This document shows, one piece after another, positions 10,349 to 55,420 of a stretch of 64,000 nt of DNA; position 1 is the first letter of the stretch, and the number at the start of each line of letters is the position of its first letter. The DNA comes from Styela clava. Lineage: Eukaryota; Chordata; Ascidiacea; Stolidobranchia; Styelidae. The notes under the pieces were generated by a model. The model saw only the letters and a program-made list of their open reading frames with translations, was not told the origin of the DNA and did no database searches. The translations under genes and the position numbers were made by a program. The stretch spans positions 3,720,001-3,784,000 of the forward strand of contig NC_135259.1 of the NCBI RefSeq assembly GCF_964204865.1, given 5' to 3'.

Positions 10349-11844
10349 TCACAGTATCAAGACCGCTGAAGCGACTTGACATCCTCTAACTCTCGGACTT
10401 CGACAAAAACGACAAACCTCTGAAGATTGAAAAATAACAAATTATTCCAGCATTTCGAAATTTTAATATCACTACTGAAATTCACTGGTTAAATTGAACA
10501 ATATTTTGGAATAACGATACATTTTATGCTAGAGTGCAGAGATGGCGAACCACTGACCCGTTGATCACAAAGTGCTGGTGACCCGCCAAGGTACGAATTA
10601 ATGAAAGAAGCATACAACCATCACTTGATGAAGATTGATATTAAAACCGTATTTTTTAAAATTCAATCTAACAATAAGATAATTACTTTATTATACCGAT
10701 ATTGATGCGCTACAATGTCTGTGACATAACAATTTGTTGTGGGAATAGTTTTTTGTCCAAATCGCCATTTGCATAGCCTCTCTAGCATATTAGGCTGGTC
10801 TATTTGACAACAGGTTTGATTGATAGGGTGGCTGCACAGGACGAGCAAGTGCAATGCCTATGTAAAGATTTGTTCTTCAAAACGTGTACCACGGTGTTAG
10901 TGTTAAAAGTATAGCAGAAGCAGAACTAAGGAAGAAAAACGGCGAGACATATGCGAACCAGGATGGTAGTGACTTCAATGCCGCTAAAACTGATCAAAAA
11001 TTACTATTGTTTCAGAGTGATATTCCTTTCCAAACTCTTATGCAACCACGAAAAGATTTGCCATAGCAGTGAAACGTATTTGGGTAATTCATATATGCAT
11101 GCGAAGTCATGTTTTCGTACACAATTTACATAAAAGCGAGTACCTGATATCGCATCAGTCATTATATGAATGCTGCATGTTTAAATCTCTCTTAAATCTC
11201 TAAACAAGACCATCTCCAGGGTTATAAGACTCACGAGGAAGATACGCCATAAAGTTTCCAATTTACTATATATCTATGACTCACAGTCTTTTTTCCACAA
11301 GAAAAATACAATTTTTGACCCATTTCTTCAAAAAGATTCGCCATCCCTGCTATAGTGTATCCAATTGATTAAATTTTACACTAATTTTATAGAATTATAA
11401 AATTTCTAACCTGGTCGTGACACATTGTCACAGTTTCTGACATATCTCTTTCGCAACACATTATATCTGCAATATTTAGTGCAGTCGACAACAACAACCT
11501 TGTGATTTTTAGGTTTGCTGGGTGATGCTTGGTCGTGCAAGTTTTGTGATATTTTCCCTTTAAAATAAAAATTTTTTTTATTGAAAATATCACACAGGGG
11601 TGTGTATACATTTGCATGTAGACATTCGGCCGTTTAATATTATAACATTTTTAATATGTTATGTATTAACACTTTTATATATTTTGGAATGTTCAACAAT
11701 CGTTTTGCAGAAGAATAAAATGAATGGTCGCAAAGTTTGAAGCGCGATTGAAAAAATTATATTAAAATGAATACCTTTTTGTACAACTTCGCTAGCAGCG
11801 ATTGTAATCAGTACGGCAATGCATACAAGAAATAAGGTCTTCAT
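10349..11844 (-). CDS. Secreted six-cysteine basic peptide, family member A
   Basis: Three exons on the minus strand: 11844-11775 (70 bp), 11557-11411 (147 bp) and 10419-10349 (71 bp), 95 codons in all. Both introns are phase 1. Exon 1 encodes a clear signal peptide (Met-Lys, then a Leu/Val/Ile/Ala core). Exon 2 carries a basic linker and CTKYC followed by a third Cys twelve residues on. Exon 3 carries CRFC and a last Cys. The spacing is C-x3-C-x12-C-x8-C-x2-C-x7-C. The layout matches member D (54433-55420) and, less closely, B and C. A TATA motif lies ~105 bp before the start codon and AATAAA follows the stop. Intron 2 contains an 813-bp hAT element. The exon 2 acceptor (TTTTAAAG) is weak. 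The likely role is an extracellular defence or effector peptide, which is inference from size, charge and cysteines only. Confidence 0.72.
10537..11349. mobile_element. hAT-type element in intron 2 of peptide gene A
   Basis: Inverted ends CAGAGATGGCGAA and TTCGCCATCCCTG are flanked by near-identical 8-bp target duplications (CTAGAGTG at 10529-10536, CTATAGTG at 11350-11357). At 813 bp with no transposase domain visible, it is non-autonomous or decayed. Confidence 0.88.
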
Positions 11845-11947
11845 ATTTTCTTAAAAATTGCGTAAAGAGCTACTTTCAAACGTTTCTTCAAAATTCTTCG
11901 TTCGATTACTGATCTTTCTGTTTGGCGATTTCGACAACAGATTACGC

Positions 11948-11957
11948 TTTTATATAA
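11948..11957 (-). promoter_or_regulatory. TATA box of peptide gene A
   Basis: TATATAAAAG on the minus strand, 104-113 bp upstream of the start codon at 11844. It is a good match to a TATA box at a sensible distance. Confidence 0.5.
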
Positions 11958-12754
11958 TTTCTCAATTACAAAATTGGATCACCATTCCCGCAGTAGACGG
12001 TATCTTCTAAACAAATATGTAACTCGCTTTTAATGGATATCATAGTTGCTCCGTGATTCGAACCAGACAGTAGGAGTTAATACTTTGAGAGAAATGAATT
12101 TCGTTTTCGACCTTCGGGCTACTTTCGTGTAGTGATAATTCAGGTTGTAATAGTTATATCTGACTGACAAAACGAAGTTTTTATAAAATATAACCCACAA
12201 GGTAATCCGACTTTGCGGCCAACAAATGTAATACTTTTCGTATAACCAAAAAAGGTAATGGTAATACATTACCTCATATATATATGCTTTATTTGTTCAT
12301 TAAATTGAGAAAATAGATTAGTAAAAAAATAGGTTTTTGAGATACTAAGAAATATGATTTCATACACCTATATTTATCTACTTAACTAAGTCTAGAATAT
12401 ATTATTAAATTTGATGCGGTCATTTTTATGAGCGTCAAGAATTGTAGCCTACAAAATTTATGGGTTTATTTGAGGGGTATCTGACCTCAGTCTTCCACTT
12501 GAAGAAAGACAATTTTTATTAAAATTATTTTATTGTCGAACAACAATTGTGATATTTCGCTGCCCCAATACTTCAGTCGGCATTAGGTTTATGTTTTGCC
12601 GAATTACGTCACATTTTGTTGCTTATTTGTGGCTAATCCTCATTGAGTCACTATTATAATCGTCACAAAGTTTATACAGATGAACACTTTTCTTATTTAC
12701 TTTTGTGTAAAATATAATTCAAACAACAAATGTTTTTGTATGAATGCATTATGA

Positions 12755-13543
12755 CAGCGGTTTCCAAACTATGGGTTGCGACCCACTGGTGGGTCGCAAA
12801 AAGAATCTTAGTGGGTCGTGAAAAGATGTAGAAAGCTTTGATTAATTATACTGGTAATTATACTGATCGGTGGCGACTCAAATACGTAAACCTTGAAAAA
12901 AACCAAAAGAAATTAAATTGAATTTAAATTCTAGTCTGTGAAAGTTTTCTTTTTAGGATCTTTTTAGGACCATGTGGTTTTTTTACGCATAGCAGTTTTG
13001 TACACTGTGCAGCACTTGTTACCGTGTTTCCCCGAAATTTAGACAGGTTTAGATTTATTTTCTTTTGAAGAATAACACTATGTTTTTTTTTGTTTTGGAA
13101 GAGGTCTTTTGTGTTCATTTATCAAAAATATATTTACATTGTAGAAAATCACAAGATTTTTTAATGAACATTATATAAAAACCGACATTCATTGTTTTTA
13201 TTTGTATTTCTTATACAAAAATCAAGTGACAAATATCAAAATCGTGATTGTGACATCACACAATCTTGAATAGTGGTGTAATCTTCACCTTACCTCACGT
13301 CATTGAACCATTCCTCTCCCACACATTTTAAATTTATTTCAGGGTAGGGTTTAATTAAAATCATTTTTAAAATTCAAATTAGGTTTTAGTTCCAGGCCAA
13401 GTCTTATTTTCGAGAAAACACGGTAGTTGTGCGATGATCAGCCATTGCTGTGTTCTGTAGTATGTCATAAAAAGTTAAGTGGGTCGCCATAAGCTGTGGT
13501 AATAAATAGTGGGTCCCAACTCTAAAAAGTTTGGGAACCACTG
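12755..13543. mobile_element. hAT-type element with a nested insert
   Basis: Inverted ends CAGCGGTTTCCAAACT and AGTTTGGGAACCACTG are flanked by 8-bp sequences matching at 6 of 8 (CATTATGA, CACTATGG). The termini contain repeated GTGGGTCGC-type motifs common in hAT elements. A second palindromic element lies inside at 13021-13424. Confidence 0.85.
13021..13424. mobile_element. Palindromic element nested in the hAT
   Basis: Ends ACCGTGTTTCCCCGAAA and TTTTCGAGAAAACACGGT are imperfect inverted repeats. The type resembles a palindromic element I recall as widespread in animal genomes. It lies wholly within the 12755-13543 hAT, so it inserted later. No transposase is visible. Confidence 0.65.
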
Positions 13544-13551
13544 CACTATGG

Positions 13552-16500
13552 TGTACGATTTCTTATAATTTCACTATATTACAATTTCATAGGTGGTATT
13601 ATGAGCATTGCACATTTAATGAAATACCCGTAATAGCACTTAAGAACTGCTTGAAATTGTTTTTGTAAATATTCTACTAAACTATATATGTGCAAATATT
13701 CTGGTTTGAACAAGTCAATTCTGGTTTTAACAACACATTGTGCTCTATATTCGGACATTTCTGTGGCCAATCGAAAAACGACTGGCTCACTTACTATACA
13801 GTGCTTAAAATTGTTGTCGACATCTGATAAAATTGTTTCAGTTCTTAAACCGATTCACACTAGATGGCGTGAGATATACACAATTAATGAATGTATTGTT
13901 AAAGACAAATAATTCTAACAATTTCTTCGCATTAAGGTTGATCAAATTTGAACCCCTTTAATTTCAAGTAGCTTTTTTACCATATTTCATAATTTATGAA
14001 TTTTATCATCTTCAGCATTTGAATACGTTTGACTAGGTTCTAATTTACCCAATGATATTCTTTCAAAATCTTTAGATTCTCCTTAGTCAGTCTTCAGTAT
14101 ATATTTAAGTCATTGAAAAAAAATCAAACAAAATAATATATTGCTTTATATCTGAGAACATAACAATATATATATATATATATATATATATCTTATTTCA
14201 ATTTTGTTATGAGTAGTTTGTAAAATAATACGTTGGATATCGATATTCATTTTAAATGACACTTCTATACTATACTTTTTTACTATGAAATCTTTGGATA
14301 GTCTTCAGGTCCACAAATAGTCAAAATTCTGGTATAACACATTCATAGAATGCTTAAACTTTTATTGCTATTGACATTAATCATGATTTAAAAGCTATAT
14401 AAAGCAATATAATGAACAATCAAATAATAATTTGCATAATACTTGATACAAGGCAAAAATCGCCATTGCATCAATGAAAAAATCTTTACAGATTTGTAGG
14501 TGTATCGAACAGCAACCGATGGCATGAGTGACGTCATTGCCTTTGGCATTGTTCGCAAATCCTTTAAGACACACGCAAATCTCTAATGAATGCATTGCCC
14601 TGTACATATTTATTTCGCCTGAAAACACCTTATTACGTTGAGCCTTCTGGTATACTCACGAAATCCCCTGGTTAGTTTAAGAGGGATTTGTAAAATATAA
14701 TGTTATTCGTAGCCCCACAACATTTTCTGAAGTATTTCAGTTGAAAGTATCCGTGCTAGAATTATACCGTTGAAATATTTCAATTCACATTCTTCTGAAT
14801 TCAACCACAACATCATTTAGTTACACAAATGAAAATTGCTAAATCTCCGACAATCTTGATTCTGTCAATTTATCAACAAATCACACTGTAAAATAATTTC
14901 ACTTTCAATTGTTTGGAAACGTTTCATCAAAATTTTCCTTTGAGCCACTGTTAATTTGCCTAATGTTATATTTTACTTTTCTAGTGAAAAATCCATACGA
15001 CTGAACGTGTCTTGTCGAAATTATTTATTCTTCGTTGATGGTTTCATATATAAACCGCAGGCAGTCAAGGTATTTCGAGACGTTTTGCTGTTTTGAATTT
15101 GTAAAATTTTCTAACAGATAAGATATTTATCATTTTTTCATTAAGATATGAAACTAATACCTAACTCATGTATAAGATTACGTGATACGTGAGAGAGTAA
15201 TAGTTTTCTGTAATGGATTTGGTTTAAAGCCTGTCGTGTCGAATTCATATAACACTGTTGAAGAAGTCAGTAATTTTTCTGTTGCGTTTCGATCATTGGC
15301 ATACAGTTACAATCTTGGTACTTTAAATCATCGTCTAACTCATTCAGACGGAACAAAAATCGAGACAAAAAATCTGAATTTACTGATATGCTAAGTGAAA
15401 GTAGTAGGTAAAAATACTAGTTTATTATATAATGACTGATCGTCCAATTAGAGTGAATGGCAGTGCAAAGTTATTGAAATTCGTTATCACAGACTCGTAT
15501 TTTCAAGCCCAAACTATCTACTCAAATAGACCTGCGCGGTCTGTGAGGACAAATTAATTGAAAAACTGAGTATCTGAACCGCTTTGAACCAGCATTCAAA
15601 TAATGAGTGGTTCGTCGAAAATGGATGTATCAATGTTTTAAATTTATTGCAAAAGGTGATTTCCTATTTCGTAGTTAAGAAAGGCTACCGCTAACGAGAA
15701 ATGACCATTTAAATGTCGTGTGTTGGCTATTGCTCAAATCTGCATTTGACTATATAGTCAGATACATTAATTTGTCAGTATACTTTATTATTCGAAAATA
15801 ATTAGTTTAGTTATTCCATGTTTTCTCAGTTTGACGTGACCGGATGTAACTTGTATTTCGATTTACTGAATACCGTTTTTAACGATTTAGAAATGTAAAA
15901 AATGTTACCATATCATCAGTATATACGAACAAGAACCATGGATGGTAATACAATCAAACTTGATAGGTACCAAAATTAATCAGTCACTGATTTTATAGTC
16001 TTTAACAAGCCCCTGTAGATCAGATAGACATTTTAAATTCATCGACTTTAGCACAATTTCCAGGAAAAAAAGTTTCGTAATTAGATTTTGTTAATTTTTG
16101 ACGCGCTATCATTAGGTAGTCTACAGCGTAATATTACAAATTCTTTTGACGCGATTTACATAGCTTTGATTGTAATGACTTCTAGTAATTATTACCTTAT
16201 AATTTCAATATTTTGTTGGTGGGCACGAACGAGATTATTCACTGGCTAATTTTAGTCGGGGATAAGAAAGCCCCAACAATGTGATCGTAGTTCTAAAACC
16301 GGGAAACAAAACCTTGAAACAAATTAAAGCATAAAAATATATTTTATGTTTATCTCTAAACAACGCTTATTTTGAAAGTTATATTGATTAAGAATAGCAT
16401 AACTTTGTGCTTGTTGTTATTATTTAATCTTATCTAAATGTTCACACCGCAAAACATTACGTGACTGCAAATGCGAATTGAAGATCTGCATCTGAAATTT

Positions 16501-18860
16501 TATGTCAAAACAGACTGAAAAGATATAATCTCTATTATTAAGTACTTTGAAACGCTATTGAAATAGAAATATAGAAGTGTTACGTGACTGTCAACAGATA
16601 CCGTGCTATTTTGGCAGGTAATATTGATTGTAAAGCCACTCTTGTACAACTCATAACACACAAAATATAATGCCGCCAAATTTTTCATCATGTTATTCTG
16701 GTGGCTTGATGGCCAACTAGCCGTACTTAAAGAGAATTGATAGCGAGTAACATCAACAATTCACAGCTCGGTTTACCGTTAAAACACCACTTTTTTACAA
16801 TGAAGTCCAGTTTATTCCCTTTTCTCCATACCGGGGATATCACAATCAAATGTTTGAACCAACATTCCGCATGGCTGGTCAGTGCTAAGAACTATCATAA
16901 AGGGAAATTTCATAGGAATGCAATACTGGCGTAGATAACATAATACCATGTACAATACAAAATAAAACAATTACAGCTTCTGTTGTAAAATTCCCCATTT
17001 GCTGCATCATTTAGGAAATTTGATTCCCTAAGCAAGAACTCACCACTTCAGAGCGATCAAACTATTTTGTGTATATATAAAAAAAGTTGTTAGCAATTTT
17101 TACAACGGAAGCTAATCATTATTATGCACCCACTATGCTACGCGAAATATCATAATTTTTTTTATAGTTTAATGGATAAATGTACGGTTCAAATTTTCCA
17201 ATATTGTTCTACTTACGATTGCAATTTTATTTTATATATGAAAGAAACAGAAACATTACCTCGAAACTTCACGACTCCCTTTCATTTGGTAATTTCAGAA
17301 TATCTCATATCAGTTGCATGGAATGCTAATGAAACAACAAATGTGCTTATTACATTGATATTTTTATCATAATTACAAAATGTATTATTATGCAGCAGCG
17401 AATATATATTTGATAAGTATGTTTGTGGTTGTTTTGAGATTATTTGCAATGTAACAATTATCTTAACCACGATCTATGGTCTGTCAATATTTGATATTCT
17501 GTATAATAAGTCCATTAATTTCAGAATGATGAAAAACATAAAGAATCTAAATTCAAGCTTCTTCTATATTGGGTTAATAAGTTTTCATACAATCGCAGCA
17601 TTTACGAACAATTAATGAGTAATTTTAGGAATTTTATGTTGGGGCATATAATTCAACTCATATCATATGGAAAAAATGAAACAACATAACTCATTTACCA
17701 TATAGGTGGATTTTTACGTTGCAAAATGTCCATTCATTGAATATGTAATAGGCAAGTTTGTGTTATGTGATATTACAAACTGTTATATATAAAATATATA
17801 TCTTCCACTACTTTTTTACTAATATTTTCAACGATGTGTGAATAGTTTCAAAAGTATTTCAATAATATTTACCGTCACATGTTTACCGAAAATCTAGATC
17901 AGTGTAGATGATAACTTCAGATAAACGTCACATTATTCAATTTATGCAACAATAAAAATTTTTTATGATATTTTTTATCGTGAAATAAAATTAATATTCA
18001 CACATAAAAGAAATTAAATATAGATCGGCGCTAGAAGATAATAACGCAGATATTGTGTGGTACTTTAAAGAATGTAGTATGTCTAAGTATATTGAATAAT
18101 CTACATACCAAAGACTTACATAATTTCAAATCCTTAAATCTAGAAATTATAAGTTCAAAGTGATGAAATTGTTACTGATTTTAAAAATGAAATAAATATA
18201 TCAAATACATGTCAAAAATCAGAAGAATTTTGAAAATTTTCATCCGGAATCATTTTTAACATAAATTGTATTAGGATTGTATTAGATCTTTGCATTTTTA
18301 GCTAATTCCTTGACATCTAACTGAATACCGAGTTGGACAAAAGTTGGGCCAATGATTCTTCCAAATTTTCTTTATTGCCTGCTTCGTTTGCGTGACATCC
18401 TGACACTAAAACCTTTCACATCGTCATATATTATAAATCACATCGTCAATGCAAGAAAATGAAGTTTAATGTACATCAAAATATATATACAAATATATGA
18501 AACATGTTTGCATCTTGTTATATACAGTGGAAACAAAATAGAACTCTGCATTTTTTTCTGTAAAATGAAGCAAATGAACATATTCTTTAGCTGATGTTTA
18601 TATTAAAACGAACAGAAATATTTAAAAATGACTTTCAGACATAAAGTGAATTGAAGAGATGTTTAATTAAAAATAAGAATTTAATTCTTCAATATTGGTT
18701 CAGCGATTTTAATAAAAATCATAATAAATCGCAATTTCAAATCATAAGTATATTTGACACAATAGAAGAAATTAAACGTCATCACAAATAAATCACGTTC
18801 AAATAGTTTTTGTGATCGTCGTAACTATTGGAATTTTTTCGGAAAGATTTCTTTTTTGTT
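13552..18860. other. Gene-free interval
   Basis: About 5.3 kb with no supported exon. It holds one TA dinucleotide run (14166-14191) and otherwise unique-looking AT-rich DNA with scattered spurious open frames of 60-80 codons. Confidence 0.5.
14166..14191. repeat. (TA)n microsatellite
   Basis: An uninterrupted run of alternating T and A of about 26 bases. Confidence 0.9.
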
Positions 18861-19617
18861 TCATCCAACAAGCGATCCTCCCTTGCAAACGTGTTTGCGA
18901 CAACTGTAGCAGAAGCTGATTTTTTCTTTAAAATCTTTGAGACCTGAAAAAAATATATATAATTATAACATAGATCGTTTGGAAAATCTCGCTTTCAAAA
19001 ATTAATTTTCAAGGTGATTTATAGTTTAATGATACAATACAATCAGCTTAAAAAGTTATTTAATTTTATAGCTTTTTTTAATTTTTTGACATATATATCC
19101 AAATTACTCTCACAAATTGTAACTTTTATATGGAAAATTTTTTATAACCAATAAAGAATACTATTCACCGACCTTTCACAAACTTCAATTTCTTCACAGC
19201 TTTTGAACAACTCATTTTATAATCAGTTTTGTTTTTGCTCAATTTGCAGGCGTTTTTCCAATTTCCACAACTAGTTGCAAATTTCGAAAATTTTGCTTGC
19301 TTTTGATTGGTCATGGCCGTTGTTTCAATATTGTTTGTCCCCGTTCCGTTTACCGTGCTGCTCTCAAGCTCATTTGACAAGGTAGCCGCTGAACCTGAAC
19401 AAAATGTAAATAAACATTTTATTAAAATATTTATTTGATAATTTATAAGATAAATTAAAAAAAGTTTGACCATTACATTAAAGCCGATTTGAATTTATTT
19501 TAAAACATTTTCATTTAAATTTAAAAAATGCAAAAGAACAGACTTACCGGTGTAGGACATAGCAGCAATGCAAGCAAGCACAAGACTGACGGTCATCATG
19601 TTTGAAAAACTTGACAT
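18861..19617 (-). CDS. Secreted six-cysteine basic peptide, family member B
   Basis: Minus strand, three exons: 19617-19548 (70 bp), 19394-19173 (222 bp) and 18943-18861 (83 bp), 124 codons with phase-1 introns. Exon 1 is a signal peptide. Exon 2 encodes a Ser/Thr/Asn-rich spacer, then a Lys-rich cysteine domain starting SCGNWKNAC. Exon 3 ends in CYSCRKHVC then KGGSLVG and stop. Spacing is C-x6-C-x12-C-x22-C-x2-C-x4-C, identical to member C at 24992-25957, with which it shares most domain residues. The exon 2 donor is GTCGGT, a weak but usable site; without splicing, a stop follows two codons later. A minus-strand TATATAA near 19942-19948 lies ~325 bp upstream, and a CTAG acceptor-like site in the leader hints at a 5' UTR intron. 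The function is unknown. A secreted host-defence or signalling peptide is a guess from charge and cysteines. Confidence 0.82.
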
Positions 19618-19949
19618 TTTCTCCACTTGAAATTGAAACAAATCGTTTTTGTAACTAAATTATTTTATTCCACTAGAAAAATATTAATATTTTAAATTTC
19701 TTAGCAACTTTTCACCGCTCAACTTCAACCGCTTCAATTCAGCGATATTATGATTTGTTCCAAAATTTTGCAACATATTATTGTAGGAATAATATTTTTC
19801 TGTCTGAAAAGTGTATCTGTAATAAATTATTGTAGGCTAAATTGAGTCGGTTGTACTTGGCAAAAATTCAGTTGACTTTAGTCGCTTGATGACAGACGCT
19901 GCTTGCAGACTGTTGCTGTTGAATGATTTCATTCTCTCTTATATAAACT

Positions 19950-24600: not shown

Positions 24601-24653
24601 TTTCCCTTTAACTTGAGAGAAACACTTTTACTGTATATAAGTAAAGTAAAGAG

Positions 24654-24991: not shown

Positions 24992-25957
24992 ATGAATTCT
25001 TTCATTTTCCGTTCGATGATGAATTTCTCAAATGTTTTGACCGTGGGAATCTTTCTCGCATACATTTTTATCAGTTCTAATTCTGGTGAGTTTTATTTTA
25101 GCAATTATTGCCTCATGCTTGCTTTTTGGATTGTTTTATTGTGCCTATTTATTTGCGTTTTATTATACTTTGTGTCTATGTTATATATAAACCTCACGGT
25201 CTGGGGTGATAAATGACAATAATAAAATTATTTTGAAAATTATGTTTTTCTGAATTTTTTCAAAGTGATGTTTTATTGAAGTTTATAATTACAAACGGTA
25301 ACTGTGACAGCATAGGTAATATAATTTATATCGTAACTGGCCAAATATAAACATATACTTCAAAAACGGAAAATAATTTTCAATCCGAAAAAGGAAATAT
25401 TTAAAGAATATATTTCTAAATTTAAAGAATCTCTTCATAAATTAAATGAAAATTTGTGTGATTTGATATTTTACTTTGTCACTTACAATTTCCAGATTTG
25501 TTGGTATACAACTAACCATTAATTTTATTTTTGTGACATATACAGCTTCCGCCGCGAGTATATCCGCACCCTCAACAACTGAACATGATACGCTGAACAA
25601 AACAGAATCAACCGAAGCGATAACAACAGCCATTCCAGTTACAAAACAAACTAGATTTTCAAAGTTTGCAATGAGCTGTGGAAATTGGAAAAACGCCTGC
25701 AAGATGAGCAAAAACAAAAACAATTACCAAATGACTTGCGCAAAAGCGGTGAAGAAATTAAAATTCTTGAAAGGTAAGATAAACTATACTTAACAGAATA
25801 CTGTAACTGAAAATAATAATTATCAAATTTCAAATGCGAGATTCCATTAATATTATTGTTTATTACCAATCCAGGTCCAAAAGATTTTAAGACGAAAATC
25901 AATTTTTGTTACGGTTGCCGAAAGTATGTTTGCAAGGGAGGTTCAATTGTTGGATGA
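24992..25957 (+). CDS. Secreted six-cysteine basic peptide, family member C
   Basis: Three exons: 24992-25085 (94 bp), 25546-25773 (228 bp) and 25875-25957 (83 bp), 134 codons with phase-1 introns and GT-AG borders. Exon 1 encodes a signal peptide with a long hydrophobic core. Exon 2 has a Ser/Thr/Ala-rich spacer and then a Lys-rich domain with SCGNWKNAC. Exon 3 ends in CYGCRKYVC, KGGSIVG and stop. Cysteine spacing C-x6-C-x12-C-x22-C-x2-C-x4-C matches member B exactly, and the linkers differ much more than the cysteine domain. The last two exons could be taken for a longer open frame through the donor, but the B/C match fixes the splice. B and C face away from each other, 5.4 kb apart, which suggests an inverted duplication. 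The family is not recognised. An antimicrobial or effector role is possible but unproven. Confidence 0.85.
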
Positions 25958-26010
25958 AAAATTGGAAATCATTTGTCGGAATTGAACTACCTACCAACTA
26001 TTTGTGGCAG

Positions 26011-26754: not shown

Positions 26755-26937
26755 AAAATTTGTTATTCGCCTCCTTTACGTCAAGTTGTGTAAAGGGACT
26801 GAAACCTATGGGCAGGGGATATATTCACTTGGCTAACACAGACAGTCCCCGAACTCGCAATAGAACTAAAATGAGGGAAATCGGAATAAAATTATGGCCT
26901 CACCCTAACCTGGTCCACGCACTACGGGAGTACCCAA
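26755..26937 (+). mobile_element. Palindromic MITE family, truncated copy 2
   Basis: The internal sequence, including GTTGTGTAAAGGGACTGAAA and CACTTGGCTAACACA, closely matches the copy at 59988-60192. The right end is ACTACGGGAGTACCC, the family terminus, and CACCCTAACC lies inside. The matching left terminus is not seen, so the copy looks 5'-truncated. Confidence 0.7.
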
Positions 26938-26959
26938 ATGGTAATAAGGAGGTCATTTA

Positions 26960-28161: not shown

Positions 28162-28524
28162 TATTGCTTTACAAGGGTATCAAAATTCGATGAATATCAA
28201 GTATTATCAGTTGTATAATTGCGCAAAATTGTAGAAAATACGGTTCCATTACATTTGAACCCACGTACATTTGAACCCATGACAATTGCACTTGTATGCT
28301 ATTGCACCTATGGAATTTTTTTTGTTTTTCGGATAGTTGAACCCATACTAACCCTAACCCATGGGTTTTAGCACCCGCATATAGATTGAACCCGTGGATA
28401 TACGCATGGGTTCAAATGTACGTGGATTCAAATGTACGGTCACCTATTGCTTTACAAGGGTATCAAAATTCGATGAATATCAAGTATTATCAGTTGTATA
28501 ATTGCGCAAAATTGTAGAAAATAC
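28162..28524. repeat. Perfect 80-bp direct repeats flanking a 203-bp palindromic insert
   Basis: 28162-28241 and 28445-28524 are identical over 80 bp. The 203 bp between them (28242-28444) has inverted ends of about 40 bp built of CATTTGAACCCACGTACATT-like units, and a centre with CTAACCCTAACCCATGGG. A normal target-site duplication is far shorter. Either an unusual insertion or repair event duplicated the target, or a foldback element landed at the border of a tandem duplication. Confidence 0.85.
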
Positions 28525-37419: not shown

Positions 37420-38520
37420 CCGGTGTTAGCAAAATCGATGTAATTTGCCGACGTTTCAAATTTCTATACAGAAAAACTTCATCAGGGCATGATATGGAAA
37501 GGACACAAGTGGATATATATATGCAAGAAAAAGAAAAAATTATCATGGCGTCAACTCTAATCTAAAGAGATGATGATAAGATAATATATATAAATAAACA
37601 AATTAGCGCAAGTTCAAACAAAAAGGGGACTATTTAAACAATGATTTATACACAGGCGGGAACAGTGTGTTTTCTTTGTCATTCATATCGAATTCTTCTC
37701 TTTATTTATGTAATACGATTCGAGAAATAGTCTTCTCCTGTATTGAGTTTTTTTTCTAGTATCCTTCTGTTTTCCCAGTCGATGCTATGGTTTTTAGGAA
37801 GGGCCTGCTTCGAAAGAGCCGACTGGTCAATTTTCTTTTGTTCAATATCTCGTAGATGTTCCTTGCTGCGAGTTTCAAGGCTTCTTTTGGTTTCCCCAAT
37901 GTAGACTGAAGAATAGTCGCTGCATGGGATTGCATAATATACAACTCCGTTTTTTTGTTTAGGGCATGGGCGGTCTTTGACGTTGGAGAGCAATTGGCCG
38001 ATAGTGTTTTGGGGTTTAAAATTTACTCTGATTTTAACGTTTTCCAAAATTCTTCGATTTTTTTTTTAGTCCTTGGACATACGGAATGGTGGTAGATGCG
38101 ATTGGTTGGGGTTTATCAGGCAGTTTTTGGAGATTTACATGATTTCTGAACATTTTCGTTGGATATCCATTTTGTCGTAAAGTCTTCTTGAAATTTATTT
38201 CTTGTTTCTGCTTTGTTTCATCCGATATAAAGGTTTTGGCACGATTCATAAGACTACTAAACACTGAACGTTTATGGTTAACGGGGTGGCTGAAATCAAA
38301 ATTAAGATACCGATTAGTATGGGTCTTTTTCCTAAATATATCAGTCGTCAATTCTCCATTTCCTTCTCTCTGTATCTGGACATCTAAGAAGGCTATTGTC
38401 CCATTGACTTCTTTTTCTATGATAAATTTTATGCTTGGTTCGATCGTGTTGATGTCATTTAGTACGTTTACAGAGTATTTACAAAAAGTTTCAGGTTGAT
38501 GTACTGGAGGTCAAACAATA
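37420..38520 (-). mobile_element. Penelope-like element, 3' part (RT C terminus and GIY-YIG endonuclease)
   Basis: On the minus strand, an open frame from about 38495 to 38034 encodes the C-terminal part of a reverse transcriptase, with IAFLDVQIQREG and TNRYLNFDFSHP. It is followed by the endonuclease frame 38047-37706, with YYAIPCSDYSSVYIGETKRS (GIY-YIG fold) and a conserved SKEHL. The two are broken apart by a one-base slip in an A-run near 38060-38070. The catalytic RT motifs upstream are missing, so the copy is 5'-truncated. Downstream, CTGATGAAG...GAAACGTCGG (37485-37449) matches the conserved Penelope terminal motif and hammerhead core. The copy is dead. It sits just before the first exon of the methionine-synthase-like gene. 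Confidence 0.88.
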
Positions 38521-41718: not shown

Positions 41719-41900
41719 GGCACTTCCGTATTATGTGAACCAAGATGGCGGACGAGATGGCATAGTTTTAATACGAGTTCGGGGACTAGCTAAGTGACTA
41801 CTGTAGTACATGTACCTGAAATTATGGCCTAACCCTAATCTTCTACACATACTACGTTCCGGTGTCCGCCATCTTGGTTAACATATACTACGGGAGTACC
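41719..41900. mobile_element. Palindromic MITE family, copy 4
   Basis: The left arm GGCACTTCCGTATTATGTGA and right arm ending ACTACGGGAGTACC are inverted, with ACCAAGATGGCGGAC inside and CTAACCCTAATC in the middle. It lies in an intron of the methionine-synthase-like gene. Confidence 0.8.
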
Positions 41901-45025: not shown

Positions 45026-46639
45026 GTCTAAAGTATACACGTGGAAGAGCAATTGCTAATTATCTTTCATTTTACAATGGCAAAGAGCAATTTATACAAG
45101 ATGCAAGGCTGATCAAAAAACTTGGTCCTGGGGCAATAATAGCCTTTGCACAGGACTATAAAGAGGCGCCGGTAAGTGCCGGCAAATTAGTATGATTGAA
45201 TTAATTTAATTTCCTAAAGAAAAACCCGTGTAAAGCTCCCGCAAGTGATAATGAAACGTCAAGAAAGAAAAGGTTTTTAGTGAATTGCTGTAATCTCTTC
45301 TAACTGATTTAGTGGGTATTCGAAAACAAAAGTATTTAGATGACGAACAATGATTCTATCCGTGCGATTATTTAGCGTTGACCTAATTCAGCAAAAATGA
45401 AACAAATTGTTCATATCAAAATGTTCTTATCAAGTTCTTATTTAAAGAGGGGATATCTACCAATTCATTAAATATTTTTACAAAGGCCAGAACTCCAGAG
45501 AAAAAGGAAAATCTTTGCATCGAAATGTTTAAACTGCTCGTGGAAACCGTCGGATTTCATCCTAATGAAGTGATTTTGGATCCCGTAGTGACTCGTACAC
45601 CTATCAACAGCCAACCTGGAGCCAATGAATTTGGAGAGACTTTTTTTGAAGCAATTTCTTTGATTCGCACCTGCTCAGATCTTCGTGATTACAACGTTCG
45701 TCTGATAGGCGGAATAACAGCAGTTTCGCAGTTTTACAGAGGATATAGTAAAACACGAATTGATTTGAACGGATCTTTTCTGAAACACTGCTTAGAAGGT
45801 CTGTTTTATTGTTATATATATTATATGTAGTAATTTGGATGGCCATGGTCGAACCGGAAAGATTCTAAAAATACTATCATAGGTTCACACACATATATAT
45901 ATATATACTTTTTTGTATGCACACTTTTTCCATTTACATACACCTGATGGCTAATTTTAACTGATTTGTTTGTTCAGCTGGTATGCATCACGTGATCATG
46001 GAAGTGACAAATATTGCTCACGAGATCAAGCAAAACCTCGTCGAAGATCTCGTAACAAACAAAGATCCAGAAGCTAAACAAAAGCTGAAAGCATTCTGTT
46101 GTGCTGAAAATTACGAAAAAGAGAATCAGTAAGAACGTGTGACCAGTATATGTATATAATATAAACGTTAGAGACAATTTGAATCCTTAGAATGTCAGTA
46201 TACAATAGAAAGCGCGTTTATTTGATAGTATATTTTAATGATGTCTATGCGTTATTGTGATAGTAGAAATTAGATGCTTTTCAGTACGAGCATCTGCTTA
46301 TCCATAGGGAAATCCAAGAATTACTTCTTTAAATTGAGCTAATGAAATGAATAATTTTTGATTGAACTGAATTTAATTGAATTTTAATTGTGACAGCCGG
46401 ACGACAATACGAGAAGTAAATATACATCAATTTTTCAATACATATTATGATAAATATAATTTTAGTATTTTGTTACGTTTTTAGAAGCGTCAAACAGAAA
46501 GACTTCACTGGCCTTCGGGGTTGCAAAATATCGAGAATCTTGGGCCGTGAAAAATATCGTCAAAAATTGGTGCTTACATTGTGGTTTACTGCAATTCACA
46601 GTATAAGTGATATAAAAAGTATATAAACGACTATGCCTT

Positions 46640-47880
46640 ATTAACGAAGAAAACGATCTCAGTACGTATTATCAGTTTCTACACAAAACCCATTTATTAA
46701 TGGCTTTAATTACTATCGGGACCCGTAGTGTAGTTTTGTACCTTTCCAGTATTATTTCCAGTTATGTGAATAAAGGACACTGAAAATATAATTATTAAAA
46801 TGAGCTTTATGCGTTTTATCAGCGTATCACACATCTTTTTTAATAAAGGGTTTTCTTTTGCATGAACTGAATATCCATGCACTCGGATTCACCTAGATGT
46901 GCTTTCAGTATTGAGCCAATATTGATTTAGCATTTTTTCAATCTGACAAAACATTAAACATTGCCTATCGTATACATTTATAGATTTCCATTTCCTATGA
47001 ATAATTGTCGAATCGTACTTTCGTCAACGCACACAGTGAATCGTTTTACAGACACGGTGAAATCACTTGGCCTATGTTTGTCAATCATTTGCAATTTATT
47101 CGTTTGAATCCACTAGTGAAAAAGCGATTTGCAAAGAATTGATGCTTGGCATCTTTTCAGGATGCCCAGGATACACTGTGTATATTAATAGTAGGTTTTT
47201 TAAATATAACATAAATCTACGATAACGATGAAACAAATTAATGAAGTGCAACTTAACTTACACAAACTGTCCTTCAACTGTTGGAGGTTCGTGGAAATGG
47301 ATAAAATGTGTTTTTAGTTTACCCTGACAAGTAAAACAGTTTCGAGTAATTATTGGATCAGATTTAAATTTCACACTTTTTCACTGGATTTCACACATCC
47401 CAGGCGTTGGTTTGAGTGACTCGAGGCAAATCTCTCAGACGTTGTGTATTTAGGACGCTTGTCAAACATGTAAATATTGTAGCAAACAAAGATTTGAAGC
47501 ATTCCTCATCATGCCACCAACTCCCACTTACCAGATCATTTATATTTCAGACTTCACCAGAAAATACTTACGAATAATAAGAACTTTGGTTTCTTTCTCA
47601 AATTCGAGAAACATCGTTTATAATTTATATCGACTAATCTCGATTTTCAGCAAGAATCATTTACACAATCAACATATTTAGGAACTATTTTCACACAACG
47701 TTTGATTATACGCAGAATCTATTATTATTTATTGTTTAATGGCTTGAACATTACATGAATAGTATATTGATTATTGTTTTATGCAAGATACGTTGCAAGT
47801 TGTCACAAGATTATTTTCTTCTTTTATTACTATAACGGCGAATTTACTTTAAAAACTGGTGAACGATTACATCCTTGTTC
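46640..47880. other. Gene-free interval
   Basis: Apart from the AATAAA at 46769, probably ending the methionine-synthase-like transcript, I see no feature. Confidence 0.45.
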
Positions 47881-47891
47881 TTCTATTCACA

Positions 47892-48016
47892 GTTCGTTTG
47901 TGAAAATATTTTATAAACATAAAGCGAACAAGATGAATACAAAATATGATATGTTAAAAAAAGATCACCCAAAGTTTCCAACTGAAGGTCCATCCCCCGG
48001 CAAATTTCCTTACTAG
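47892..48016 (+). CDS. Possible terminal exon of a small gene
   Basis: A good acceptor (TTCTATTCACAG) opens a frame rich in Lys, His and Pro that ends HPKFPTEGPSPGKFPY and a TAG at 48014-48016. Codon choice looks coding. I found no upstream exon with a signal peptide in phase. It could be the last exon of another small secreted protein, or chance. Confidence 0.3.
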
Positions 48017-48019
48017 AAA

Positions 48020-49660
48020 ATTTTGTCAATTTCGATTTAATATTTATTTAGGGCTATTAAATTCCATGAAAAAAGAATAATAGTATCCTTTTGTATATTG
48101 TATCAAATGTTGCAAGATTTAGGTAACAGTTTTAATTTGATACTGAAGCCCCTTAGTTTACATTCATTTCACCCCTAATTAGGATAGAAAGATATCAAAA
48201 TAGATTTTGCGTATGCAAGCACAAGTTTTAATGTTTTCAAGTTTAAATCTAAGAATAATGCAATCATGGTAAGATGTGATGTGTGAAAGTCTAATGATAT
48301 GGAATGTACTTTTGGGTAATCTTATAAATGTAATAATATCGAATGCGTCATTTTTATTGAAACATTCGGAGACACATACAATAAATTTAATTTGGATGAA
48401 TATGATCCCCATTGACGCATTCATATAATATATCCACTTTTATATGCTGCTGAGTGTGAAGATCTTTACAAAGGTATATCTATCATATAAGTCATATTAA
48501 AGCAATAATAAACAGTAAAGCGTGGAATATTAAATATGAAATGCCTACTTTAAAATCCGTTATTACATCATATAGTGACAGAACCACTTTGTATTTGCTT
48601 GAAAAATTCACGCATTTAGTAGATGTGCTTATTCTCTGAAATTTTGTTGGCAACGGAAAAGCGATATTGCCAAAAATTGCTTTTACTACATTTTGATTTT
48701 TTAGCTGACAAATTACAGTTAAATGTAGCCTATTGGTACTCAATTACTTTTAGTATCGTAAATAAATTATATTAATAAATCAACGATTACCTCAATGGAA
48801 AACGACTTGACTGTCGGAAAGTAATTTCAAAAACAAATTGCAACTTTGGGTAGCACTGTTTCATGTTTTATCCATTTGTGATAACTAAACAATTGAAACA
48901 AATCGAGAAATCCAATTGGAATTTAATCGTGCACCTGGGTGACACATGCAATCCTTTAGGTGTGTATACTCGGTTTTGTGCACTGAACAACCTGGTACAT
49001 GCTCTACTCAGCATAAGATAAAAAACAAAGCCTGCATTACGTAATCATATAGTGATGAAGTGGGAATAAAATGCATTCATAATGCTATGCACATTAAATA
49101 CATAATACAAATCTATACAAACGCATGCATCGTTGCTCGAAGCTGAAAAAACTTGGTTTGAAACGATCGGACAAGCTACTGTACAAAGTAATCAAAGATA
49201 TTTGAATCAACCAGATGCTATGTGATATGATCGCTTTCAGGAGAATGTTTTGTGAAGCTTAAATATTGGGGCTAACAGTCTTTGAAATGAGTCACTATTC
49301 CGTTGAACAATTATTGTCAATCCCCTCCCCCTACAAAAAAGTTTACATTCTCATCATCACAAGCATAAAGGTAATATGAAAATGTAGGAAGTAAAATAAT
49401 CATTTTAATAAATTTATCATGTGGGGCATATGTAAGCTCATAATCAATCGTGATCCACTTTTTATACGCCGTTTAATAGGCTCCAACATGTTCCATCTAT
49501 GTTCCTCCAATATGTTCAATCACATATTAGAAATTATCCCAGACGTCATTTCCGTCCCACATGGACAATAATTCAAATGAGTTTCAGCAGAAACATCTTT
49601 ATTATGCAAACTTATAGCTGTATTTAAAACGAAAATTCCGATTTGATTTACACCCATTTC
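48020..49660. other. Gene-free interval
   Basis: Nothing supported. There are only short frames on both strands. Confidence 0.45.
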
Positions 49661-49669
49661 CCAAATAAC

Positions 49670-50082
49670 CAGGCTTGTCCATGGGATTGGATGAGACAGC
49701 ACACATTTGTATTTCGCATGGGACACGTGGGACACGAAAACCATGATTCTCGGGGAAATGATGGTAATACATTTTGTTATGAACTTCGTGGCCATATATT
49801 TGAGCATAACTCTCTTTTTGGTTATGAAGATTAAAATATATTCAGCATTGTCAATATACTCCGTGAAGGGGCTGATGGACACATGTATAATAGTTAGGGA
49901 CATATAAAAGTAACAAAGTCTGTATATTTTATTGTTTTGCATGTCTCTTCAAACATGTAGTCCTATTTAGTAGACCCTAAACCTAAATTTAACAATTTTT
50001 ATTGAATTTCATTCCAATGGGACGGGCATAATTGCTAGGGAAAAGGAATGGGACAGACAAATATGTCCTATGGACAAGCCTG
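49670..50082. mobile_element. Inverted-end DNA transposon remnant
   Basis: CAGGCTTGTCCATGGGAT at the left and CCTATGGACAAGCCTG at the right are inverted repeats about 413 bp apart, with GGGACA-type repeats inside. No target duplication is evident. A 10-bp tandem duplication (AGCACTGATG) follows the right end. A 140-codon minus-strand frame across the left border is not credible as a gene. Confidence 0.6.
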
Positions 50083-50248
50083 CGTGAAATAGCACTGATG
50101 TAGCACTGATGACTTTCGATTATTATAGTCAAATTTCAATTCGGTAATTGAGTTTCGATATTGCATATATTTCTTTCGATTCAGTAGGCAGTTTTGGTGT
50201 TTAATAACTATTTATTACAATTGCTTTAAAAACAACTCAGCAAACGGT

Positions 50249-50256
50249 ATAAATAT
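50249..50256 (+). promoter_or_regulatory. TATA-like motif upstream of small peptide E
   Basis: TATAAATA about 200 bp before the start codon at 50458, in the context GGTATAAATATAGGC. Confidence 0.4.
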
Positions 50257-50457
50257 AGGCTCGGGTTTTTATAAACATCAATTCATTTGAAATCGAATAT
50301 TAAATTTAATATCGAACTCAACGAATAATTTTAGATTGTAATGTGTATTGTTTTCAATCAAGTCACACCCACGTACGTTATCTAATACAATTTTTTAAAT
50401 TTAGAGAAAATTTAATTTTAGCTAAAATTTGCTTTCTGCAAACTAGAATCGTGCAAA

Positions 50458-50855
50458 ATGATTTCCTATCAAGAGTTTTTGATCATGATGTACATGATGA
50501 TATTAATCATCGCAAGCTTGATGACTGAAGCCGATGCGTATAGTAAGTATACTCATTTATTATTTTTTCAAGTCTAAACAGGCGAAATGATTTGAATGGT
50601 TAGTTTAATTGTGATTTTATTGAAAACTAGCCAAAATCTGCTTCAGTTACTTGCAGAACAAGATTATTTGTTGTTGCGTCTCTGTTTTAACATAATTTTC
50701 TGTTGAAAACATAAGTAAACCACAATCATACATTCAAGTTCAAATTTTTTAAAGCTAATATATTCATTTTATCATCAGAATGTACAACAATCTACGATTG
50801 CCCCCGAGGATACGACGCGTGTTATGGAGGTTGGTGCGTCATGTATGCTGCGTAA
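50458..50855 (+). CDS. Small secreted four-cysteine peptide (E)
   Basis: Two coding exons, 50458-50542 and 50779-50855, give 53 codons with a phase-1 intron (GTAAGT donor, ATCATCAG acceptor). The first ~25 residues are a Met/Ile/Leu-rich signal peptide ending ADA. The mature part is only about 26 residues with cysteines C-x5-C-x6-C-x4-C and the motif CYGGWC. AATAAA lies 3 bases after the stop codon, and a GTAAGA donor just beyond hints at an alternative 3' UTR intron spliced to about 51199. A TATA motif is upstream. Unlike members A-D it lacks the third-exon C-x2-C motif, so I treat it as a separate family. The function is unknown; a secreted defence or signalling peptide is inference. Confidence 0.62.
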
Positions 50856-51296
50856 AAAATAAAGGGTAAGATGAGGTTAATATTTCCCACGTATCAATTT
50901 CCTCCGCTAATTTGCAATGCAGAATTTTAACAAATCCCGAAACCCTTTAGGTGGAATAGACACTACTCATTATTAACGACAAAAAGAGCTAAATAAAAGC
51001 TGAGTTTTTCCTCATTGCCTCAGTGAGGCTTTAGCTGGGAACTGAGTTCACAATTTGCAACCTATAAAACCCGATGACAGTCATTAGAATGAGTCTCTTT
51101 GAAAAAAAAATCCTAATCAATATTTCGTCTGTTTGAATCAAATTAATGTCATTGTTATTTTTAATTGAACTGTTTACGAAAAAACACTCACTTTTCAGGT
51201 TTGTGATGCTTCAATAAATAGCAAGTCGCAAAGCAGCAGTTTGAATTTAATATTTCTTTTTGATTTATTTATAACTTTTCCTTTTTTGTTTTTCAA

Positions 51297-51429
51297 GACA
51301 AAAGATCATCTTGCCATGTCAAATCATCACGACGACATCTACCATTTTGAAAACCCTAATTCACCTAAAACACAGATTGTAAATAATTTCTGCTCACCAG
51401 AGGAATTGGCTTTGTGCAATGCATATTAA
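51297..51429 (+). CDS. Possible terminal exon of a small gene
   Basis: An acceptor (TTGTTTTTCAAG) opens a frame that ends IVNNFCSPEELALCNAY and TAA at 51427-51429, with AATAAA near 51494. It could be an alternative 3' exon of the peptide E locus or belong to a separate gene. The phase does not match the E exon 2 as drawn. Confidence 0.3.
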
Positions 51430-51826
51430 GACCTTCATATTCAATTCATTTTAATTAGTAGCTAATACCAGAATAATATATAAATACATGCTGAATAAAT
51501 TCATGGCAACAATTGACTTGTATATTCAATGGTAGAGAAATGGGCGAAAACTGTTATTAGATTCTTACCGTACATATACACCAATAAACAGCCGCTGCTA
51601 AATCACATGTGAATTTCGGAGTTGATAATAAATGACTTCGATTGATTGAATGAAATAATGTTCAAAAATGAGTAGAACATAAAACTTGTCCCTACCCCGT
51701 TCAAGAAACAGAATTTCTCACGAAGAAATCTACATTATTGTTCTTTGATCCTGCCAGTAGTGATATGTTTGTCTCAACGATGAAGCCATGCATGTCCAAG
51801 TACGAGTTTTAAGTCAATATCAAGTA

Positions 51827-52965
51827 CAGGGACCCAAATATGAAACCCAATAAATTCCTAATCACTTTCACGGAAATGAAAATAAAAGTATCTAAATTTG
51901 CTTGCGCTCGAACTTCTGTTTGTGTATGAGCATATCCGAAAGTTTCAGGAATCTAAGACCCTTGTACAAAAGTCATATTCCCCCTGTTGCTGTTCGAATA
52001 TGTTCCAAATTATCTTATTAATCATTTGTTGCGCAAACTTGTTATTCACCTACATGGTTTTCTGCTGTAGAGTATTTTCTGCTGTCAGGACATTTCAATA
52101 GCAACAATATTGTTTAACGGGGCACATCACCTCCGAAGAAAGTCTTACAGAAGCCGTTACACTAAAGTGCACGGTATGGGTAATTAATTTCAATCATGGC
52201 CTAATCAGTCCATGTTACTTGAAAGGCAAAATGAAATAGCTCAAACGGTGGATTGATAGAGGTTACCAGAGGTCTCAGCATAACGAGGTGACCCTTACGC
52301 ATAAAATTACACCATGTACTGGCCAAGAGAGCTATTTCAGGAAACGCTGATCAGCATTTAGCAATGACGTCGATTGGGCACCTGATTCATCGGACTTGAA
52401 TCCGAATTAGCCGAGTATTTTGTGATTATTACGAGATAGTTAAAACAATGAATGGAATACATTAATCTGTCATATTAGGCAATTTAATATAATAGTATTT
52501 AATAATGATAATAGAAACCACTCTTCGCAAAAGTGAGTGACAAAAATTACAACAATAGGTAAAACAAACATAACAATATTTTGAAACTAGATTTTTTATA
52601 AGTACAGGGTAACCCAAAAATCAGAACCCATTACTATTTTCTTTATCTCTATGAAAATGGAGTAAATCGTTAAATTTTGTTTTTACTTAATCTTCTGTCT
52701 CTGTATGATTGTACCCATAGTTTCAAGATCCGTGATGTTTTGCACAAAAGTTGTGTTATTTTCAGAATATGTTCCAAATGACCTTCAAATGACGTCAAAC
52801 GTGCGATTTAATGTGTTGGAGGTCGTCTCGTTTTGCTTGAACCACTGTAGAAGGTTCCCAACACCACCACGTAAAGTTCCGTATTTCAGTTCCAATACGG
52901 ACGAGTTATGCCATGTTTGTAGATGTTTACCGATTCCGTACACGTTACTGAGAGTAACAATCTAA
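51827..52965. mobile_element. Mariner/IS630-like remnants
   Basis: Two diverged copies of the same start (TACAGGGACCCAAA at 51827, TACAGGGTAACCCAAAAA at 52605) share downstream blocks such as GAATATGTTCCAAAT. Between them, at about 52372-52430, a broken frame reads DWAPDSSDLNPN. This resembles the conserved transposase motif around the second catalytic Asp of DD34E-type enzymes and is followed by a stop. Confidence 0.55.
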
Positions 52966-53072
52966 CTAAAACCTCCTTCGGAGATGCTGTTCCCCCCATT
53001 CCAGTTCCCCATCATTTTTGCTATTCAAATGTCCAGACATCTGTAAGTTCCCTTCAGCAGAAAACCAAATGA

Positions 53073-53743
53073 ATAGCGGTTCCCAATAGGTTCGCCGTGG
53101 CGAGTTGCCAAATGCGCCGCGAAAACTAACAGAATTGTGATAAACATACCTAAAATATGATTGAATATTTTATATATTGCATCTATTGTCTCTCAATTTA
53201 AATGCTGTGTATACGAATCAATAAATTAATTTTCCCTTTCTATGTCTTTTACTTTCCATTGCGTAGTGTTTGCCTCTAATGTTACGTCTAATGGAGATAG
53301 AAGCACTTGCTGTAATTTCGCGAGCTGCAGACCTGCAGTTAATTTATCTGCTGAATCGAGTTGAGCGAATATTGATTTTTTTAGCATTTCAAAGTAAAAT
53401 CAGGCAGAGATGAATAAAGAAAATTTGACATTTTGCATTTTTTTTAGACCTACTTGTTTGCTTATAGCAAAACCAAAAGGATTGCTGTAAACTAGATAAT
53501 AAACTTAACAGTCTATAAGTTCGGCCGGCGGTTAACGAAATTACCTTACCTACCTACCTTAGTTAGTCCGCTTTAGGCCGACGGTGACGCGAAATTGAAT
53601 GGGTCAGTTGGGCAACAACTTCACGATCCCTAGATCGCCACTGTGAACAATTTTAGACGTATTTTTGATTCCCTTTCCACGGAACGCTCGGAAGACGCTC
53701 GCGGAACAATAATGTTCCGCGGAACACAGTTTGGGAAACGCTG
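53073..53743. mobile_element. Possible degraded hAT element
   Basis: AGCGGTTCCCAA at the left and TTTGGGAAACGCT at the right are inverted hAT-like termini 670 bp apart, with GTTCCGCGGAAC palindromes near the right end. The flanks do not show a matching 8-bp duplication, so the two ends may come from different copies. Confidence 0.4.
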
Positions 53744-54432
53744 CTCTAGAGAACTGTGTTGATTTATGATATCTCTTGAGGTAGGCAGCCAAGTTTCATG
53801 ATTCAGTGCAAAGACGCGGCTGATTCTTTCAATGCTTCAAGCTGTTATAATTCCAACGCATTTTGTATGGTATATGCCAGTGGTATATTCTTTTGCAGAC
53901 AAGATTTCGCTATAATTATATTAGCCTTACTGTAATGAAAATTGCTACCAGCTGTACCTACAGTATTTCCATATTCTATGAACGTCCGAAACAAATCAAT
54001 TCTGAGGTAAATTCGCTGAAATGAAGTATGCAAGAAATATTGGGTATCTCATTTTAACTTCAAGCATATTCGAGCTTTAAATTTTTGTATGATGTTGTCT
54101 ACTCTACAAGAATTCATTACGAACACGAAATGGCACTCTGGATGGTTTTGATATTATAAAACTGCTAATAAAATTTTACTTATTGACATGCGGATGCTTT
54201 GCTATTAATGATTGTTGTGTGTCATTTTCACTTTCGTGTCCATATTCAAGCACAACTCTGCTTTGTCGTTATTCATAGTTTATTAACAAAAATAATCTTC
54301 GACGCTATGATGTTATGTTACTTAATTGAACTTAAAGCTGATTTATGTGATAATTCAACTTCGAATGACAGTAAATTCTTCAAATAAAGTGAACTATTCA
54401 TGATTGAAGTCGTCTCCGTAGTTAAGTGAATC

Positions 54433-55420
54433 TTAACCCATAATTGTCCCCGATTTGCAGCGGAGTTTTCGACAAAGTCGACATAAATCTGAAAACAAAA
54501 AATTGCACGTTTAAAATTCTATTTTTAAATAAAACTAGAGCTCGTGCTTCTAAAATCTGAATCAATAAACTGATCCAAAATTAGAATGACGCCTATGAAT
54601 AATCATATCAAATTAACCCACAATAGCCAATTGAATGTTATTCGAGTATTTCAACTAAAATATCCTCATGTAAAACAAAATTCAGGAACAGAAAAGATTT
54701 TCATTATTATTATTTTGTCATCTGAATAACGCCATCTGTTGAATTAATCTCACTTGGATCATCCTTGAAAAAGCATTTCCCCAAATATCTTTCACGATAG
54801 TGATTCCATTCACAATAAGGTGTACAATTCAGGATAATTTTGATTTGTTTATTTCTTTTTCTAAATGACCCCCTTTTCAGCTTCTTTTGCACCGATGCTG
54901 ACATATAAAATAATTAAATAGTATTAAAATTGTAAAATCGTGAAGCGCAAGAACGAATCATGAATAGTTTATTGTTAGTAAACATGAAATAAAAAATTTT
55001 GTGGGAAAATCTGACAAGCACGTACAATAAAAAGAAAAAAGTAATTGGGGTTCTATATAAAATGTTCTGAAATAAGCCTCCACGACTTATGATGAAATTT
55101 CAGACAGAACCTAGCCGATATCGTTAATTGTCTGTGTTATGTGTTACCTATTCTATATGGAAGCTTGACATTTCTACCATTACTTAAATATGTAAATCTA
55201 CCAGAAAGTTTTAGAATAGTTCGTTCTGCTTATATCTTCAGTAAACAAACTGGAGTAACTAAAAATTGCGAATTACTTAAAATTTACCAAATAATCACAA
55301 TGTGATCAGACAATAAAAACGAATTTAACGCAATAAGCACATCTATTTACCTGCTTCCATTAAGTTAATGAAGAGCATGAGTGCAAATGCGATAATCATC
55401 AATTCTTTAATGTTATTCAT
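54433..55420 (-). CDS. Secreted six-cysteine basic peptide, family member D
   Basis: Minus strand, three exons: 55420-55351 (70 bp), 54897-54754 (144 bp) and 54488-54433 (56 bp), 89 codons with phase-1 introns. Exon 1 is a signal peptide, the same length as in A and B. Exon 2 has a Lys/Arg-rich linker, CTPYC, and a further Cys twelve residues on. It leaves through GTGAGA, inside a longer open frame that would otherwise run to a stop at 54715. Exon 3 follows TTTGTTTTCAG and encodes CRLCRKLRC, KSGTIMG and stop, clearly like the CYGCRKYVC/KGGSIVG end of C. Spacing is C-x3-C-x12-C-x8-C-x2-C-x4-C. An acceptor-like site 50-70 bp before the ATG suggests a 5' UTR intron. The extracellular role is unknown. 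Confidence 0.78.

Follow-up and report, generated by a model that had tools for sequence, protein, structure and literature searches.

An apparently undescribed family of predicted secreted six-cysteine peptide genes in the ascidian Styela clava

Several small defence-type peptides are known from ascidians. According to the sections of the source report available, turgencins A and B from Synoicum turgens are cationic, amidated and antibacterial peptides of 35-36 residues, with six cysteines paired C1-C6, C2-C5 and C3-C4 and the loops C-x3-C-x4-C-x7/8-C-x2-C-x3-C, the x8 loop being that of turgencin A (PMC7024374). Botryllin, as presented in the accessible parts of two reports, has a precursor with a signal, a cationic mature peptide and an acidic stretch past the mature C-terminus (PMC9966394, PMC8719109). 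Both the turgencins (PMC7024374) and the St-CRPs (PMC13208793) are reported there as isolated chemically, and in the portions of the turgencin and St-CRP literature examined no gene family has been described for either. Here we analysed a 64,000-nucleotide window of the Styela clava genome (positions 3720001-3784000 of contig NC_135259.1, here C13, 22.5 Mb) together with the 376.6 Mb genome in 379 contigs from which it was taken. Judging from the DNA, four genes in this window appear to belong to a real and so far undescribed tunicate family of secreted six-cysteine peptide genes, of which at least 17 are readable on C13.

An earlier reading of the window (the original prediction) had placed four genes in it, here called A to D. 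All four were rebuilt from the DNA letters alone, with exon/intron joins that are predicted, and each was recovered where it had been placed:

Gene A exon 1, 11775..11844, minus strand: predicted signal peptide, ATG to donor, phase 1
Gene A exon 2, 11411..11557, minus strand: pro-region and cysteines 1-3, phase 1/1, GT-AG; resembles D exon 2 (tblastn E 6.5e-4)
Gene A exon 3, 10349..10419, minus strand: C-x2-C-x7-C and C-terminus, stop at 10351-10349
Gene B exon 1, 19548..19617, minus strand: predicted signal peptide, gene model
Gene B exon 2, 19173..19394, minus strand: Thr/Ser-rich spacer and cysteines 1-3 (C-x6-C-x12-C); inverted repeat with C exon 2, 79%
Gene B exon 3, 18861..18943, minus strand: cysteines 4-6, end LVG-stop; inverted repeat with C exon 3, 73%
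Gene C exon 1, 24992..25085, plus strand: predicted signal peptide, gene model
Gene C exon 2, 25546..25773, plus strand: gene model, inverted repeat with B exon 2
Gene C exon 3, 25875..25957, plus strand: end IVG-stop, gene model, inverted repeat with B exon 3
Gene D exon 1, 55351..55420, minus strand: predicted signal peptide, gene model
Gene D exon 2, 54754..54897, minus strand: cysteines 1-3 (C-x3-C-x12-C); genome matches to the further genes J, I and H at E 3.7e-15, 3.1e-13 and 2.4e-10
Gene D exon 3, 54433..54488, minus strand: C-x2-C-x4-C, end IMG-stop, gene model

Each model has three exons, and all eight introns are GT-AG and, as had been claimed, in phase 1. The first exon is signal-like, the middle exon carries cysteines 1-3 and the last exon carries C-x2-C-R and the final cysteine. 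The predicted spacings were reproduced exactly: C-x6-C-x12-C-x22-C-x2-C-x4-C in B and C, C-x3-C-x12-C-x8-C-x2-C-x4-C in D and C-x3-C-x12-C-x8-C-x2-C-x7-C in A. The same is true of the predicted size of the last exon (56-83 bp in A to D), and because this exon is so short the family would be easily missed by gene finders. A further exon-3-like frame (window 21257-21183, minus strand) was dismissed, with scores of 0.054 and 0.28 and a single cysteine. Most of the 991-bp intron 2 of gene A is made up of an 813-bp element (window 10537-11349) with inverted ends of 13-14 nt, CAGRGATGGCGAA, flanked, by eye, by near-identical 8-nt sequences; we take this inverted-repeat element to be hAT-like.

The four genes are only the part of the family that falls within the window, so the family is not four-membered as first proposed. 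To A-D are added at least 13 genes on the same contig, giving 16 genes with three exons and one, H, with two. Twelve of the 13 lie about 320-440 kb past the window; the other is at 5.38 Mb. A genome search with D returned three extra exon-2 sites at C13:4.18-4.22 Mb, and reading of the surrounding DNA (140 kb, then 40 kb) yielded genes E, F, G, H, I, J, K, L, M, N, O and P, while gene T (C13:5379788-5378566) was picked up by an M query and then spliced. An O query gave more exon-2 matches on C13 at 12.14, 9.64, 9.63 and 5.14 Mb (E 1.8e-6 to 0.0015). At 12.14 Mb an exon 2 is visible and no exon 3 was found in the 1 kb examined; the other three sites were left out of gene reading, as was C13 3.804-4.09 Mb, and the counts given here are lower bounds. 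Among the matches listed for family-member queries, all with E < 0.03 fall on C13, and three off C13 have E-values of 0.035, 0.26 and 0.55. At the sensitivity used, the family as detected so far is confined to one contig of 379. C13 also carries two decayed-looking near copies of O, namely Q, without an ATG at the O start site, and R, without the last cysteine, and a further broken copy (exon-1 match at 4112299-4112222, exon-2 piece near 4111830). An apparent segmental duplication (C13:4103058-4107284 and 4115388-4119288) bears the pairs Q/P and O/M and shows ongoing birth and decay within the cluster.

The exact framework of D is common to six genes (D, E, F, H, I and J). In H, exons 2 and 3 are fused into one, and the unbroken frame keeps this framework exactly, which supports the exon 2-exon 3 join predicted in the other genes. 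K departs in the last loop (x5). The spacing C-x3-C-x11-C-x10-C-x2-C-x5-C occurs in M, N, P and T, being read from the printed sequence for P, and G, L and O have loop lengths of their own. Genes B and C are unlike the other members in the first loop (x6) and in the loop between the third and fourth cysteines (x22). Their exon 3 matched that of the D group with an hhalign probability of 91 (E 1.1e-6, 24 columns), and an exon-3 profile built without B and C recovered both (E 7.2e-4 and 1.4e-4, respectively); an exon-2 profile built without them failed to recover either. Because of the exon 3 similarity and the agreement in gene structure and location, B and C are taken here as a subfamily of the same family. 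Outside the cysteines and the CxxCR motif, column identity is low, with a mean of 38% over 13 aligned domains.

Searches against known families support the view that the family is undescribed, as had been suggested. Pfam gave no family for whole A-D or for the domains of A and D-J (K-P and T were outside the scan), NCBIfam gave none for the domains of A and D-J (8 members), and a PDB sequence search gave none among the members scanned, its best match being a snaclec chain at E 0.2. In particular, none of these scans produced a convincing profile match to a well-known peptide family. Several low-scoring names were treated as chance: YgbA_NO (Pfam E 0.0081 in 2 of 8 members; an NCBIfam family described in the same way reached E 0.023 in 1 of 8), Macin (Pfam E 0.02, 1 of 8) and, below the cut-off, PIP49_C (E 0.037), Anillin_N (E 0.043) and FYVE_2 (E 0.048), all on C, as well as LEAP-2 (Pfam E 0.17) on D. 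The family was likewise absent from the titles and abstracts listed in searches of the open-licence PubMed Central literature, each of which listed at most 20 papers.

The description of the products as basic, secreted six-cysteine peptides also stood. An N-terminal hydrophobic stretch is the strongest in the peptide in all 17 members (Kyte-Doolittle 10-residue mean 2.27-3.79); signal peptides were judged by hydropathy, with no dedicated signal-peptide program, and are thus predicted. The net charge of the cysteine domain is +3 to +16 in the 12 members for which it was computed. A predicted signal peptide and a cationic mature part are two of the features expected of secreted antimicrobial peptides, along with the killing of microbes. 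The pro-regions vary: those of F and G are acidic, B, C and H have Thr/Ser-rich ones, and others are basic. Ten of the 17 peptides end in Gly-stop, and in I and J the same Gly is followed by an acidic tail, DESWTDDDEF. A C-terminal Gly is the substrate for peptidylglycine amidation, and the Gly seen here is possibly such an amidation signal.

That the models are spurious exon chains or pseudogenes would be in keeping with genes known from DNA alone and with the decayed look of Q and R, yet we regard it as highly improbable. Beside the fused-exon relative H, a splice-aware scan of 244 kb for exon-2-like pieces paired with exon-3-like ones found 7 pairs, whereas 40 second-order Markov simulations gave 0.075 pairs on average and never more than 1; the pattern was fixed after members had been seen, two of the seven pairs (K and L) were new at that stage, and of A-D only C and D satisfy it. 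Between the recent duplicates M and P, 2 of 240 positions differ in the exons, as against 40 of 517 in the aligned introns with gaps excluded (p 2.3e-5). Leave-one-out profiles (11 of 12 members, with priors) put parts of M, N and O first among presumed non-members before these were recognized as genes. With exon 2, such profiles placed 9 of 12 members above the best presumed non-member, missing E, G and L; with exon 3 the figure was 7 of 12, rising to 9 of 12 when the competitor is itself assigned to gene O, and A, H and K were missed. Further, nonsynonymous divergence (dN) lies below synonymous divergence (dS) in the cysteine domain of B and C (dN 0.107, dS 1.56), which is under purifying selection; for I and J the values are 0.061 and 0.173. 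Upstream of the B/C cysteine domain dN reaches 0.58 and dS is saturated. The proposed fast evolution of the family therefore holds for its very divergent paralogues and loose pro-region but not for the B/C cysteine domain.

Their charge, the layout of the precursor, the probable amidation and the way the gene family behaves lead us to propose that these are amidated cationic host-defence (antimicrobial) peptides, the most likely reading, to which we give a probability of about 0.5. The signal peptide encoded by exon 1 would be removed and the exon-2 pro-region cut off, the six cysteines would form three disulfides, and a peptidylglycine amidating enzyme would convert the terminal Gly to an amide. 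The resulting compact, amidated cationic peptide of about 45-70 residues would bind and disrupt microbial membranes, perhaps after release from blood-cell granules, as with other ascidian peptides. Several observations weigh against this proposal. G has a net charge of -3 after the signal exon (domain +4), and the last residues of A, F, L, N and O are Leu, Ser, Ser, Met and Gln, respectively, without a tail after a conserved Gly. Structural models of the domain are weak (pLDDT 56 and 58) and mutually discordant, with three strands in one and strand-helix-strands in the other. No NF-kB-like site was present in the 600 bp upstream of any of 15 genes tested, where about 1.1 would be expected by chance. 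Comparison of turgencin with the family profile gave an hhalign probability of 0.9, the sole aligned piece lying around CxxC, and a turgencin A query had no match in this genome (an empty result, with no positive control).

The main rival to a host-defence role is that the products are secreted, amidated peptides that signal through host receptors in the manner of cytokines, hormones or pheromones, with receptor-specialized paralogues. The terminal Gly in 10 of 17, the strong purifying selection on the B/C domain and the exact retention of one framework in six paralogues would all suit such a role; the low identity among paralogues outside the cysteines and CxxCR, the strong positive charge and the tandem birth-and-death with decayed copies would not, and we consider signalling unlikely. 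Slightly less probable still are protease inhibitors or ion-channel-acting defensive peptides that are not membrane-active. Three predicted disulfides within about 35 residues of a secreted, multigene product are what such peptides might offer, but no significant match to a family of this kind was found in Pfam, NCBIfam or PDB among the members scanned, the only inhibitor named being a carboxypeptidase A inhibitor (1 of 8 members, E 0.68). A structural or reproductive function, in the tunic matrix, the egg coat or seminal fluid, with other forces driving divergence, would fit a tunicate host and a multigene, divergent, secreted family; a small basic six-cysteine domain with an amidation-type end is, from general knowledge, unusual for matrix proteins, and of the three functional alternatives this is the one to which we give the least credit.

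At the level of genes, what is gained is a family whose cysteine framework is defined, together with its size of at least 17, its location and its precursor logic, an example of how a tiny last exon can conceal peptide genes, and a starting point for asking if turgencins arose from genes of this kind. More tentatively, and with rather more doubt than confidence, the family may have a disulfide framework of its own (C-x3-C-x12-C-x8-C-x2-C-R-x3-C and variants), possibly a new small fold, and its gene-finder-evading paralogues, perhaps dozens of them, may form a main arm of innate immunity.

Other elements were observed in the window and the genome. A probable Ras-family GTPase gene lies in pieces at window 2662-8319 (plus strand), with PF00071 over the cut-off at 7483-7743; presumably it is RGK-like. 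At window 37709-38510 (minus strand), frames matching GIY-YIG below the cut-off (E 2.8e-4) stand beside a second frame, an arrangement that we take to be reminiscent of a Penelope-like retroelement. The window also contains an identical 80-nt direct repeat (28162-28241 and 28445-28524, 283 bp apart) and a 110-nt repeat at 26763 and 60030 (91%). Tunicate cellulose synthase is a membrane CesA fused to a GH6 domain, and a locus of this tunicate CesA-GH6 type lies on contig C9 at 16.18 Mb. Its GH6 match is single (C9:16179895-16180164, E 1.5e-6), the GH6 exon is similar to family-6 cellulases of solved structure (E 3.6e-6) and the exons just upstream encode, by eye, a long hydrophobic membrane-type stretch. 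In the accessible part of one survey, the GH6 domain of tunicate cellulose synthase was present in 8 of 8 tunicates and in none of 35 other metazoans (PMC6523144). The locus thus makes it very probable, from the sequence itself, that the genome is a tunicate one; a search for COX1 had no match.

With beta-defensins, CS-alpha-beta defensins and ShK peptides the family shares the general character of small, secreted, basic six-cysteine peptides. The beta-defensin pattern has an adjacent CC at the C-terminal end, and no adjacent cysteine pair occurs in the domains of the 15 aligned members. The CS-alpha-beta pattern pairs C-x3-C with C-x1-C; all 15 aligned members have C-x2-C and none has C-x-C. 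In ShK, C-x3-C-x2-C stands at the C-terminal end, whereas here the C-terminal motif is C-x2-C-R-x(3-6)-C and C-x3-C sits N-terminally. No Pfam match to any of the three was found in the members scanned, and the predicted dissimilarity holds against these patterns. As far as the available parts of the sources go, St-CRP-1 and St-CRP-2 resemble the family in ascidian origin, six cysteines and C-terminal amidation but differ in having 18-19 residues, two adjacent-cysteine pairs and neutral charge (PMC13208793). Styelins and botryllin, in the same partial sense, are like I and J ascidian prepropeptides with a propeptide past the mature C-terminus, but they are partly or wholly alpha-helical and without a cysteine domain (styelins being listed with 0 in what is presumably the cysteine column).

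The turgencins come closer. Homology to them was rejected on the profile comparison, the turgencin motifs CxMAC and KKxGG were not seen by eye in 13 aligned domains, and membership of the family among the turgencins is not supported. Within the sections of the turgencin report available, the middle loop is x4 against x12 here and the last loop x3 against x4. By the same source, turgencins share with D, E, F, H, I and J the C-x3-C first loop, the x8 loop between the third and fourth cysteines (turgencin A) and C-x2-C, and with the family in general a tunicate origin, six non-adjacent cysteines, a short last loop and cationic charge; their amidated C-terminus may have a counterpart in the Gly-stop of 10 of 17 peptides here. 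By framework and possible C-terminal amidation rather than by sequence similarity, turgencins A and B are the nearest analogue seen.

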